A stretch of DNA of 64,000 nt, taken from positions 2,139,001 through 2,203,000 of the forward strand of contig NZ_CP097329.1 of NCBI RefSeq assembly GCF_030323025.1. Reading direction: 5' to 3'. Under the pieces are notes generated by a model. The model did not search any database. It was not told where the DNA came from and saw only the letters and a list, made by a program, of their open reading frames with translations. A program made the translations under genes and the position numbers. The stretch comes from Pseudanabaena mucicola str. Chao 1806. GTDB taxonomy: Bacteria > Cyanobacteriota > Cyanobacteriia > Pseudanabaenales > Pseudanabaenaceae. Every line of letters begins with the position of its first letter. Position 1 is the stretch's first letter. Below are positions 34,856 through 43,769 of this stretch, piece by piece.

Positions 34856-37228
34856 ATGGGCTATGAGCCACTCCACCACAAATATCGTCCGCAAATTTTT
34901 GCCGACCTCGTTGGGCAAGAAGCGATCGCGCATACCCTGACCAATGCCTTAAATACTAAGCGCATTGCTCCAGCTTACCTATTTACAGGCGCAAGGGGGA
35001 CTGGCAAAACATCGAGTGCACGGATCATGGCAAAGTCTCTCAATTGCCTCAGTTCTGACAGTCCGACTCCTCACCCCTGTGGCAAGTGTGAGCTATGCCA
35101 TAGTATCGCCAACGGCAATGCCCTAGATATTACTGAAATTGACGCAGCAAGTAATACAGGTGTCGATAACATTCGAGAATTAATCGAACGCGCCCAGTTT
35201 GCGCCTGTAAAAGCTCGATTTAAGGTTTATATAATTGACGAATGTTTGACAGGCGATACCCTTGTTCAGACAGACTCAGGATTAATGCGTATTGACAATC
35301 AGGATTTGTTAGGAAAGCAGGTACTTAGCTATAACGAATCTTTAGCAACATGGGAATACAAAAAGGTTGTACGTTGGCTAGAGCGCGATGTAAAGCCTAC
35401 GTTAATTATTAAAACTAATCAGCGATCGCTACAATGTACAGGTAATCATTTAATCAGAACAGGATCAGGATGGACAGCAGCAAGCAATATCAAAGTTGGG
35501 ATGAACATATTGTCACCTGTGCCTGTGGATGTGGAGAAAAGATGGAAATGGCATACAAGTTTGGAGAAGTTCAAATCTGTAACTGTCGTTGGTAATGAGC
35601 CAGTTTATGACATTGAAGTAGAAGATAATCATAACTTTGTCGCTAATGGTCTACTAGTTCATAACTGTCATATGCTGAGTACCGCAGCATTTAATGCGCT
35701 ACTCAAAACCCTAGAAGAACCGCCCGATCGCGTTACTTTTATCCTTGCGACAACCGACCCGCAGCGCGTATTACCGACAATTATTTCGCGTTGTCAGCGT
35801 TTTGACTTTCGGCGGATTCCCCTTGAATCAATGGTCAAGCATTTAGGAAAGATCGCCGCTAATGAGAACATTAATATTCATATGGAAGCTCTCACTCTTG
35901 TTGCCCAAATCGCGCAAGGAGGATTACGGGATGCGGAGTCTCTGCTTGATCAGTTGAGTCTATTAGATGGAGAGATTACCGTTGAAGCAGTTTGGGATTT
36001 AGTTGGTTCTGTACCCGAACAAGATTTGCTTTCATTAATCGAAGCGATCGCCACAGATCATTCCACGCAGCTAATTGACTATGTGCGGCGAATTATGGAT
36101 CGGGGACGCGAACCCTTGATCGTGTTGCAGAATTTAGCGAATATGTATCGCGATTTATTGATTGCGAAAACCGCTAGCGATCGTAGTGATCTCGTAGCCA
36201 TGACAAGCTCAGGTTGGGAGCGTTTAGTACAACTTGCTCAGACCTTACCAACTCCTAGTATTTTGCTTGGTCAACAGCATTTACGATCGGCGGAACTACA
36301 AATTCGCAACTCCACACAACCTCGTTTGTGGTTGGAAGTAACTTTAATGGGTTTATTACCTTCAGCCCAAGGAGCGATCGCGCCATCGCATCCACAATCA
36401 TCAAACACATTCCCACCTCAGGCTAATCCTCCCCGCAATATTAGCGCACAACCTATCGCTCAACCACCCAAACAGAATCCCATTCTACAGGTATCATCCA
36501 CCCCAAAACAAAATTTGTCATCTGTTGCGCCAGAGCCGATTTCCCATCCACCTATTGAACAACCTGTTACAAAAACTAGTCCTGAAACATCTATCCCTAC
36601 TTCTATCTCTTTGCCAAATGGCGAAACTCCAATTTCTTCTCAAAATGATGACCTAAATGATTTTGCTTCAGTGGGATATGACCTTGATCAACTATGGCAA
36701 AACCTTTTGCAAATGTTGCCATCACCAACGAGAGCGATCTTTGTGCAAATGGAATCTCGCTTTTTAGAAGTTGATACCAATAGCGTCAAAATAGGCTTAG
36801 GCGGTAAACGTGATGAAACCACAAAAAATATTGCTGTTCAGAAGCGCCCTGAACTAGAAAATGCTTGCTCTCAATTGCTGCAACGCCCGATTAAAGTGAT
36901 GTTTAAGTTTGTTGCATCTTCTCAATCTGGGGCAACACAGGTACAAGTTCCTACACCTTTACCTCACTCACCTTCGATCGCACCTCCCTCACCAAACCTG
37001 AATTCACAAGTACCATCACCCAATTCAGTAATTCAACCTGCTGCAGGGATCACGCCACCAGTGCCATCGGTAAGTTCGCATTCAAATCAAGAGGATCCCC
37101 CTGCGCCAAAACAATCTAGGGGATACGTTGTTTTATCTGAAGAAGAGAGGATTGTGAGGAATATGGCAGAATTCTTTAATGGACAAATTATTGATCTCGA
37201 TGAAGAAACAAGTGATCAAGGTACTTAA
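34856..37228 (+). CDS. dnaX: DNA polymerase III tau/gamma subunit with intein
   Basis: Clamp-loader ATPase of the replisome. Walker A G-A-R-G-T-G-K-T (45-52), zinc cysteines C64, C75, C78 and C81, and the SRC motif (I-I-S-R-C-Q-R-F-D) are present. The frame is interrupted after I-I-D-E (Walker B) by a 141-residue intein (130-270). The spliced protein would be 649 residues. The tail is Pro/Ser/Gln-rich, as in cyanobacterial tau. Without splicing the Walker B motif stays disrupted. Confidence 0.95.
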   Translation: MGYEPLHHKYRPQIFADLVGQEAIAHTLTNALNTKRIAPAYLFTGARGTGKTSSARIMAKSLNCLSSDSPTPHPCGKCELCHSIANGNALDITEIDAASNTGVDNIRELIERAQFAPVKARFKVYIIDECLTGDTLVQTDSGLMRIDNQDLLGKQVLSYNESLATWEYKKVVRWLERDVKPTLIIKTNQRSLQCTGNHLIRTGSGWTAASNIKVGMNILSPVPVDVEKRWKWHTSLEKFKSVTVVGNEPVYDIEVEDNHNFVANGLLVHNCHMLSTAAFNALLKTLEEPPDRVTFILATTDPQRVLPTIISRCQRFDFRRIPLESMVKHLGKIAANENINIHMEALTLVAQIAQGGLRDAESLLDQLSLLDGEITVEAVWDLVGSVPEQDLLSLIEAIATDHSTQLIDYVRRIMDRGREPLIVLQNLANMYRDLLIAKTASDRSDLVAMTSSGWERLVQLAQTLPTPSILLGQQHLRSAELQIRNSTQPRLWLEVTLMGLLPSAQGAIAPSHPQSSNTFPPQANPPRNISAQPIAQPPKQNPILQVSSTPKQNLSSVAPEPISHPPIEQPVTKTSPETSIPTSISLPNGETPISSQNDDLNDFASVGYDLDQLWQNLLQMLPSPTRAIFVQMESRFLEVDTNSVKIGLGGKRDETTKNIAVQKRPELENACSQLLQRPIKVMFKFVASSQSGATQVQVPTPLPHSPSIAPPSPNLNSQVPSPNSVIQPAAGITPPVPSVSSHSNQEDPPAPKQSRGYVVLSEEERIVRNMAEFFNGQIIDLDEETSDQGT
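35243..35665 (+). other. mini-intein in dnaX
   Basis: 141 residues from C (C-L-T-G-D-T-L-V, block A) to terminal H-N, followed by Cys as +1 residue (block G V-H-N|C). Block B-like C-T-G-N-H-L-I-R-T and block F V-Y-D-I-E-V-E-D-N-H-N-F are present. There is no LAGLIDADG or HNH endonuclease, so it is a splicing-only mini-intein. It sits exactly between the Walker B acid and the H-M-L segment. Confidence 0.93.
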
Positions 37229-42438: not shown

Positions 42439-42564
42439 ATGCTCGATCTCAAAGTTATTCTACCTATCCTAACTATCGTCTTTACCATTAGCTGTTTATT
42501 TTTTGGAACTCGTAATGGCTTTTACGACACCGACAAATATCACGGCAATGGTTCTGCCCATTAA
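42439..42564 (+). CDS. 41-residue single-helix membrane protein
   Basis: Small gene from ATG 42439 to TAA 42562-42564. A hydrophobic helix (about 5-22) is followed by F-F-G-T-R-N-G-F-Y-D-T-D and a G-N-G-S-A-H end. The polar tail looks highly constrained, so this is likely a conserved cyanobacterial thylakoid micropeptide, possibly a photosystem or NDH accessory. I cannot name it. A terminator follows at once. Confidence 0.7.
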   Translation: MLDLKVILPILTIVFTISCLFFGTRNGFYDTDKYHGNGSAH

Positions 42565-42599
42565 AAAATAGGGTGGTGATTTGCACCACCCTATTTTTT
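42563..42599 (+). terminator. terminator of the 41-residue gene
   Basis: AATAGGGTGGTG / CACCACCCTATT stem ending in a run of six T. Confidence 0.85.
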
Positions 42600-42689
42600 G
42601 CTTATGAATAAAAATATGTGGTCAACATGCTAAGCTGATCTACCTGAAAGCTAATATATATTTTAAGAATTAGCGATCGCTATAGATCC

Positions 42690-42850
42690 TACTCAGAGAC
42701 TACTGAGAAACGGAAACCGCCTATGCAGCCGAACTGTCGTAGACGCAGCTAAAAAGCTGAATCTTGATAAGTGGCGCAACCCCAGAGATGGGAATAACTA
42801 GGAATGCCCAATCGTGAGGTTGGGTACTCGCTCTCTAACTCCTAAGTGCG
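42690..42850 (+). ncRNA. structured RNA, possible HEARO/omega RNA, upstream of rpsO
   Basis: A series of perfect hairpins: CUCAG/CUGAG (42692-42707), CGG-AAA-CCG (42711-42719), CAGCU-AAAA-AGCUG (42746-42759), CCCA-GAGA-UGGG with a GNRA loop (42781-42792), and a 9-bp stem closed by a GUGA tetraloop (42805-42826). The layout recalls cyanobacterial HEARO RNAs that accompany IscB/HNH proteins, but no such protein is near; rpsO begins 54 bp on. It could alternatively be an rpsO leader. Exact boundaries are uncertain. Confidence 0.55.
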
Positions 42851-42903
42851 TTGATTGCCGAGTTTAGTCACGTCCACCTCAAAACACGTTCAAGTTTTTT
42901 ATC

Positions 42904-43173
42904 ATGGCACTTTTGCAAGAACGCAAGCTCGAAATTTTCGCTGAATACCAAAAGCATCCTACTGATACTGGATCATCTGATGTTCAGGTTGCATTACTCA
43001 CCGAGCGTGTTAACCAGTTGACCGCTCACTTGAAGTTACATCCTAAAGATTTCTCATCTCGCCGCAGTTTGCTCAAGATCATTGGTCAACGTAAGCGTTT
43101 ACTAGCCTATGTCCGTAACCAAGATCGCACTCATTACAAACAACTAATCCAAAGCTTGGGTGTAAGAGGCTAG
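42904..43173 (+). CDS. rpsO: 30S ribosomal protein S15
   Basis: 89 residues with the S15 signature G-S-S-D-V-Q-V-A-L-L-T-E-R and the R-R-S-L-L-K-I / R-K-R-L-L-A-Y block that contacts 16S rRNA h20-22. S15 nucleates the 30S platform. Followed 86 bp later by the Pam68-like gene, a linkage known in cyanobacteria. Confidence 0.97.
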   Translation: MALLQERKLEIFAEYQKHPTDTGSSDVQVALLTERVNQLTAHLKLHPKDFSSRRSLLKIIGQRKRLLAYVRNQDRTHYKQLIQSLGVRG

Positions 43174-43178
43174 TTTTT

Positions 43179-43228
43179 AAATAGTATTTGTAGTATTTGT
43201 GGTTTATATGAATACACAAATACTATTA
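43179..43228 (+). promoter_or_regulatory. stem-loop between rpsO and pam68
   Basis: AATAGTATTTGT / ACAAATACTATT arms about 24 nt apart. No terminal T-run on a GC-rich stem, so more likely a processing or stability element than a full terminator. Confidence 0.5.
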
Positions 43229-43259
43229 CAACTTTTTTAGCGCTAGTGAGGAATATAAA

Positions 43260-43769
43260 GTGAGCAAGCCAACTGAACGTATCCCTTTCGAGCCAAATAG
43301 TCGTAGTAAGAAAGCAAAAGCCAAGGAAACCCAAAAGCCGCCCATTGCTCCTATTACTAAAAATATAAATAGCTCGAAACCCAGCTTAGGTAACAGCACA
43401 AGTACAAAACCTTCCCCTAAACGAAATGATCCTTTAGGAATTCCTGATGAAGTCAATCGTCGTATTGTTCGACGAGCTGCTTTATTTTGTGGTATTCCGA
43501 CAAGTCTAGGGCTTACTACTTTTATAGTGAGTTACATTGTTGTAAGCAAACACATATTTGAGCTACCAACTTCGGTAGTAGTGTTGCTAAGTATGTTGTT
43601 TTTAGGACTAGGAGTAGTTGGTCTAAGCTACGGTGCTATTTCTGCTTCTTGGGATGAAGGTCGTGTTGGTAGCTGGTGGGGTGGTCAAGAATTCCAAAAA
43701 AACTTTGGTTACTTACGAGAAGCATGGAAGTCTCAAAAGCAAACTCCTCAACAATCTAACAATAAATAA
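43260..43769 (+). CDS. Pam68 homologue (DUF3464)
   Basis: 169 residues: a long basic/polar N-terminus (1-70), two transmembrane helices (about 85-105 and 112-132), then D-E-G-R-V-G-S-W-W-G and F-x-x-N-F-G-Y-L-R-E-A-W, typical of Pam68/Sll0933. It assists photosystem II assembly, notably CP47 chlorophyll insertion in Synechocystis. GTG start with GAGGAA SD. Confidence 0.9.
   Translation: MSKPTERIPFEPNSRSKKAKAKETQKPPIAPITKNINSSKPSLGNSTSTKPSPKRNDPLGIPDEVNRRIVRRAALFCGIPTSLGLTTFIVSYIVVSKHIFELPTSVVVLLSMLFLGLGVVGLSYGAISASWDEGRVGSWWGGQEFQKNFGYLREAWKSQKQTPQQSNNK

Follow-up and report, generated by a model that had tools for sequence, protein, structure and literature searches.

The known cases of TnpB domestication concern the protein, as in Cas12 and TldR. 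HEARO, a guide RNA of the same transposon superfamily, differs from the TnpB type in that its guide lies at the other end of the RNA. In TnpB elements, the 3' transposon end is the end of the omegaRNA (reRNA) scaffold and the guide lies outside the element (PMC10278001, partial text). RAGATH-18, the reRNA of IS607 TnpB, is another TnpB reRNA family (PMC11061315, partial text), and it gave no match to the leader RNA of Pseudanabaena mucicola Chao 1806 described here. TnpB has also been domesticated together with its gRNA, as TldR (PMC13418256, partial text). S15 leaders, of which E. coli, Geobacillus, Thermus and Rhizobium types are described, are structured, lineage-specific RNAs directly 5' of rpsO; they are diverse and likely independently derived (PMC4137082, partial text), and S15 recognises a three-way junction and a GU/GC step (PMC4684408, partial text). 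Cyanobacteria are not mentioned in the main text of PMC7247131, PMC4137082 and PMC4684408, the excerpts of the S15-leader literature that we examined hold no precedent for a transposon origin, and no report of an omegaRNA as a host mRNA leader appears among the titles and abstract openings that searches of the open-licence PMC literature listed.

The Chao 1806 leader joins two of these known kinds, the TnpB omegaRNA and the rpsO leader. It shares with the TnpB omegaRNA homology over the whole length, the P1-P2-P3-P5 fold, the right-end position and the order of GTCAC followed by the guide position, but it has no tnpB, no recognisable left end and a remodelled terminal hairpin, and it occupies one fixed place as the leader of a host gene. 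Like the described S15 leaders, it is a structured and lineage-specific RNA directly 5' of rpsO, and a multi-stem junction is possible in 22 of its 24 Pseudanabaena members; unlike them, it matches no Rfam S15-type family, almost certainly has a transposon origin, and its binding of S15 is putative. The TldR systems, in which a nuclease-dead TnpB was exapted, are comparable as a host-level domestication of a TnpB-type system, although there the protein is retained and works with the gRNA, whereas here the RNA is retained without need of the protein.

The window analysed, 64,000 nucleotides of the Chao 1806 genome, contains rpsO (ribosomal protein S15) as an open reading frame at 42904..43173 on the + strand, and the protein search matches it in 26 of 26 genomes. 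Upstream and on the same strand lies the omegaRNA-homologous core (42690..42831), which comprises helices P1 to P5. P1 is a CUCAG/CUGAG hairpin (42692..42707) with pairs that are invariant in 24 leaders, and P2 (42720..42802) is a junction helix of CCUA (42720-42723) with UAGG (42799-42802) that encloses P3 and P4. P3 (42728..42775) is formed by the stem GCCG (42728-42731)/UGGC (42772-42775), by CUGUC/GAUAAG and by a variable apical hairpin. P4, the hairpin CCCA-GAGA-UGGG (42781..42792), is not universal, being missing from 2 of the 24 leaders and from several TnpB RNAs, and P5, CCCAAUC-GUGA-GGUUGGG (42807..42824), has a GNRA loop in all 24. Further hairpins in the leader are CGG-AAA-CCG and CAGCU-AAAA-AGCUG. 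An earlier note on this DNA had placed at least five hairpins, two with GNRA loops, at 42690-42850 and 54 bp before rpsO. Both sequence and folding confirmed the hairpins at this place, and the spacing agrees with an ATG at 42904; the second GNRA loop is conserved (22 leaders have GUGA, 1 has GCGA and 1 has GAAA) but the GAGA loop is not. The start of the element was kept, but its extent had to be lengthened to about 42871, where it ends in the transposon-end motif GTCAC. Comparison of the leaders with TnpB ends suggests that this remodelled right-end region (42825..42871, +), which is variable in length, would be the counterpart of the terminal hairpin and the (GAT)GTCAC end of TnpB elements. 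The guide position of the ancestral omegaRNA follows at 42872..42903 (+), now directly 5' of the rpsO ATG, and is the most conserved segment.

The relationship to TnpB was established with two covariance models. The first, R1, built from the 24 rpsO leaders, matched 33 of 386 phylum genomes, 4 in the genus and 29 outside it; its score at the core is 145 bits, a value obtained with a model that was itself built from the window leader and its relatives. Among the 30 R1 loci that were fetched, 4 are genus leaders, and in 18 of the 26 others the RNA overlaps, in same-strand orientation, the 3' portion of a tnpB ORF or of its remnant. Two partial R1 matches at contig ends, L025 and L028 (G029), were set aside. 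Pfam searches on 10 of these 18 loci gave TnpB families above the cut-offs in 8 and a PF07282 remnant below the cut-off in 2. The second model, R2, was built from 16 of the 18 TnpB-adjacent RNAs, L086 and L097 being dropped as they have no P5; the stretches were picked by R1, but their alignment and structure are independent of it, and 19 of the 29 pairs show double changes. R2 matched the window at 42690-42832 with 86 bits and an E-value of 5.1e-17, the sole match in 64 kb at E<=10. All 24 rpsO leaders were matched, the other 23 with scores of 51.7-101.8 bits, and the 26 rpsO loci of element-free genomes gave no match. When 26 genus genomes were scanned, the best R2 match was the leader in 25 (the rpsO neighbourhood of G429 was not read). 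The transposon end is GTCAC in 23 of the 24 leaders and ATCAC in L010, the sequence to its right resembles the apparently unoccupied site in the same-genus genome G001, and there is no tnpB-like ORF among those listed around rpsO. The reciprocal matches of R1 and R2, the shared fold and the transposon end therefore make it near certain that the leader descends from the omegaRNA (reRNA) of TnpB in IS200/IS605-type elements. Since no tnpB-like ORF is listed around it and a PF01385 match is absent from 13 of 26 genus genomes, we class it as omegaRNA-derived and not as a working omegaRNA.

Some of the R1 loci outside the genus probably carry the RNA without tnpB. Eight of them (L078, L079, L085, L091, L092, L096, L100 and L104) showed no TnpB match by tblastn in the fetched flanks; most of these terminate GATGTCAC-like and thus are probably mobile copies without tnpB, and some might be other leaders. 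In G028, two 304-bp repeats (1258-1561 in both L027 and L029) are 99% identical, have no evident ORF, end in a hairpin followed by GGATGTCAC and contain little beyond an omegaRNA. Ends of this type are typical of IS200/IS605 right ends. Both copies have TTTAAT at the left, a candidate target-adjacent motif that is not seen at the G001 site. It is possible that the G028 repeats are RNA-only mobile elements and a model for the insertion at rpsO.

The stability of the fold was compared with that of shuffled sequences. Folded alone, 42690-42870 has a z of −2.39, with 2 of 200 shuffles equally stable, whereas with flanks (42680-42904) z drops to −1.13, with 23 of 200 equally stable, and the thermodynamic support by itself is thus weak; the comparative evidence is stronger. 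Across the 24 homologues from the genus, pairing is kept in 98.1% of cells, and double changes occupy 20 cells where shuffles give 6.1 (none of 500 shuffles scores as high). Any double change is found in just 3 of 29 pairs, a figure attained by 13 of 500 shuffles, and further pair types are no more numerous than expected (209 of 500 shuffles); as most helix pairs barely vary, covariation at genus level rests mainly on one apical P3 pair. In P3, columns 50/86 of alignment A1 show a double change in 15 of 24 leaders. The mixed alignment A5, with 13 of the 24 leaders, 1 of the 2 G028 elements and 12 of the 16 TnpB RNAs, has 97.1% of cells paired and double changes in 14 of 24 pairs (0 of 500 shuffles as high), and its covariation of 0.487 exceeds both the 0.181 of shuffles and the values after sliding, none of which is above 0.113. 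Double changes affect 4 of the 5 pairs of P1 and 6 of the 7 pairs of P5 in the mixed set with TnpB RNAs, and P2 is paired in all 26 rows of the mixed alignment, its fourth pair being A-U in 18 and G-C in 8. These data support one common fold for the leaders, the G028 element and the TnpB RNAs. RNAalifold obtained P2 and P3 from the core alignment A1 and from the TnpB RNAs alone, and in the longer alignment A4 favoured an alternative helix, GUGGC/GUCAC, over P2 and the lower P3. Leaders L023 and L024 are without P4 and have one or two P3 pairs broken, so the three-way junction is not universal. Two further helices showed no covariation and are not claimed, the right-end hairpin CUCG/CGAG (93.8% of cells compatible) and the alternative helix GUGGC/GUCAC (96.7%).

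When 58 genomes were searched at the DNA level, 24 of the 25 from the same genus (G000-G024) proved to have the leader, G001 being the exception; in G007 and G011 the DNA match covers just the 3' part. Genomes of other genera gave short pieces only, in G028, G029 and G038, those of G028 being parts of the 304-bp repeat. The leader lies directly upstream of rpsO in all 24 genomes that have it. A pattern derived from the genus leaders was also scanned against the named genome collection and gave 19 stretches, from Pseudanabaena, from MAGs named just cyanobacterium or Oscillatoriales and from one 'Phormidium tenue FACHB-1050'; rpsO or its first part follows in 18 of them, and the fetched piece of L172 ends earlier. 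R1 gave no match at the rpsO loci of G001, of 10 other family genomes and of 15 genomes of other families. The presence of rpsO without the element in G001 and in these 25 genomes of other genera means that the element is not needed generally. G001 has no such RNA upstream of rpsO, and its sequence on either side aligns with that of the leader genomes, on the left with a GTTA..CTAG..CTGAAAG stretch and GATCGCCAT and on the right with GTACAC.TCAA; the place looks like an unoccupied site. A FastTree phylogeny of 30 genomes, built from five proteins (those of rpsO, of three neighbouring genes and of murJ), placed G001 as sister to the rest of the genus with a support of 0.81, and a four-protein tree without murJ placed it inside the genus with a support of 40; the basal placement of G001 is accordingly not firm. 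A single insertion after the G001 split would be the simplest account. We also noted a small ORF of ~41 aa (MLDLKVILP...FFGTRNGFYDTDKYHGNGSAH) upstream of rpsO, at 42439-42563 of the window, which was left out of the trees and is visible also ahead of rpsO in further genera of the family; a perfect hairpin follows it at about 42565-42601.

We propose that an IS200/IS605-type TnpB element inserted, in same-strand orientation, just upstream of rpsO in a Pseudanabaena ancestor after the split of the G001 lineage. The tnpB gene and the left end would then have been lost, or the insertion may already have been ORF-less like the G028 derivatives, and the right end, that is the omegaRNA scaffold, would have remained in place, with the former upstream region on one side and the rpsO start codon on the other. 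The scaffold would have been exapted as a cis-acting leader, with its fold kept by selection to set rpsO expression. We consider this course of TnpB insertion, loss of tnpB and exaptation as a cis-acting leader to be likely. From the position of the element we infer that transcription passes through it and that the region is transcribed as an rpsO leader, which would be regulatory; a simple scan found no sigma-70-like promoter in 42530-43260. Most plausibly, S15 itself would bind the leader in autogenous control, which is favoured since S15 leaders are thought to be independent and to imitate the three-way junction and/or the GU/GC step. A three-helix junction of P2, P3 and P4 is possible in 22 of the 24 leaders, and P3 has G.U pairs beside G-C pairs, a candidate GU/GC step whose orientation may differ from that in the rRNA. 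S15 as the ligand is a guess, at somewhat less than even odds, although it is the most likely single mechanism, and the conversion of an omegaRNA scaffold, without TnpB, into an S15-sensing riboregulator of a core ribosomal gene across the genus is put forward with the same reserve. If true, a guide RNA would have been exapted alone, without its nuclease, before a housekeeping gene and almost genus-wide, nuclease guide scaffolds would be a source of new mRNA leaders, and one S15-type leader candidate would have a concrete origin. A comparison can draw on the ancestor-like RNAs (the TnpB right ends and the ORF-less G028 elements), on the G001 site and on the derived leader.

The leader could also act in cis without S15 as its ligand, through the stability or processing of the mRNA or through the start of translation. 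In favour of this, constraint is strongest in the segment from GTCAC to the start codon, and nothing specific speaks against it; we regard it as a real alternative, although at clearly less than even odds. As it is a sub-case of the cis-leader reading, its odds overlap with those of the preferred explanation. In none of 23 leaders (L010 was unparsed) did base pairing between the core and the UTR ahead of the ATG rank among the best 5% of 200 shuffles.

An action in trans is improbable. Here the rpsO transcript would be processed to an omegaRNA for a TnpB or nuclease-dead TnpB encoded elsewhere, with the sequence after GTCAC as the guide. The well-preserved scaffold and the guide position as the most conserved segment are compatible with this, as are the 13 PF01385 matches in Chao 1806 and the weaker, extra R2 matches in G006 (7), G013 (6) and G016 (1); one weak R2 match elsewhere was also seen in G001. 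However, 13 of 26 genus genomes are without a PF01385 match, the same 13 without PF07282, a count that may include genes missed in drafts, and all 13 keep the leader RNA, which makes TnpB dispensable for the RNA. The leader is moreover the sole R2 match in 22 of the 26 genomes, Chao 1806 included, and any TnpBs resident in those genomes would thus rely on other RNAs; the region adjoining the guide is remodelled. Chao 1806 has 16 PF07282 matches, and twelve full-length TnpB ORFs (409-410 aa) were observed in it, with right ends unmatched by R2. The 16-mer CGTMCACYTCAAAACA, searched in 26 genomes with up to 2 mismatches, showed no excess over its reversed control among the matches listed: per genome, 1-8 forward and 0-6 reverse matches (rpsO site counted) were among those listed for the 16-mer, and 2-9 forward and 2-13 reverse for the control. 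A 1-mismatch site recurs in at least 8 genomes, but the 6 sites that were fetched all fall in a conserved coding motif (CFEVEDTGxGI-like) of a large ORF. A role as a TldR-type repressor fared no better, with no PF01385 partner in 13 of 26 genomes, all 13 of which keep the RNA, and no target excess among the matches listed. The constraint on the leader, the dispensability of TnpB and the lack of a guide-match excess point to a cis role at rpsO.

The extent of that constraint also bears on whether the RNA is a neutral relic of a dead transposon end, as the variable length of the right-end part might suggest. The mean pairwise distance in the 24 leaders is 0.183 for the core, 0.227 for the right-end region, 0.253 for the upstream flank, which is thus also rather conserved, and 0.07 from GTCAC to the ATG, compared with 0.41-0.55 for the fourfold sites of four genes, rpsO and three of its neighbours. 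The slower evolution of the core than of fourfold sites points to selection, the helices are kept via double changes, and the element is found at the same place genus-wide; a neutral relic is, by a little, even less probable than a guide acting in trans. Homology alone carries no direction, and TnpB elements might instead have taken up an old S15 leader. This is next to impossible, since the TnpB RNA family is phylum-wide (29 genomes outside the genus), the leader was found in one genus only, with no match at the rpsO loci of G001, of 10 other family genomes and of 15 genomes of other families, and the leader bears the transposon-end motif.

The earlier note had suggested that the RNA is possibly an orphan HEARO RNA, the omegaRNA of IscB, and IscB and TnpB elements are indeed related through IS200/IS605 (PMC10278001, partial text). 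The Rfam HEARO model, RF02033, was not among the 20 matches at E<=10 in 42540-43000 and never matched the rpsO leader in 26 genus genomes, and IscB (PF14239) was not found in Chao 1806 or, overall, in 25 of the 26. The model does work in the genus: it matched 2 of the 26 genomes, with 6 copies in G013, 5 of them beside IscB matches, and 1 copy below the cut-off in G004. With no match at the leader although the model works in G013, HEARO/IscB identity was ruled out, and we give it practically no weight. The idea of an orphan guide RNA that was taken over as the leader of a ribosomal gene fits in kind, but the family is TnpB and not IscB. The note had also reasoned that a lack of HEARO matches together with conservation in all relatives would favour an S15 leader; within the genus both are seen, 24 of 25 genomes keeping the structure ahead of rpsO, but to conclude that it is just an S15 leader misses the origin of the RNA. 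At the gathering score no Rfam family matches the leader, and the S15-type leader families gave no match at the Chao 1806 leader. The 20 sub-threshold matches are headed by STnc390, and most fall on the hairpin at ~42559-42624, with a few others that are weak. G013 is a genome in which IscB-type genes with HEARO RNAs and many TnpBs were observed together. Elsewhere in the window, an ORF at 34856-37228, which we presume to be dnaX-like from motifs only, seems to carry a mini-intein, again named from motifs (CLTGDTLV...VHN-C, between IIDE and HMLS).
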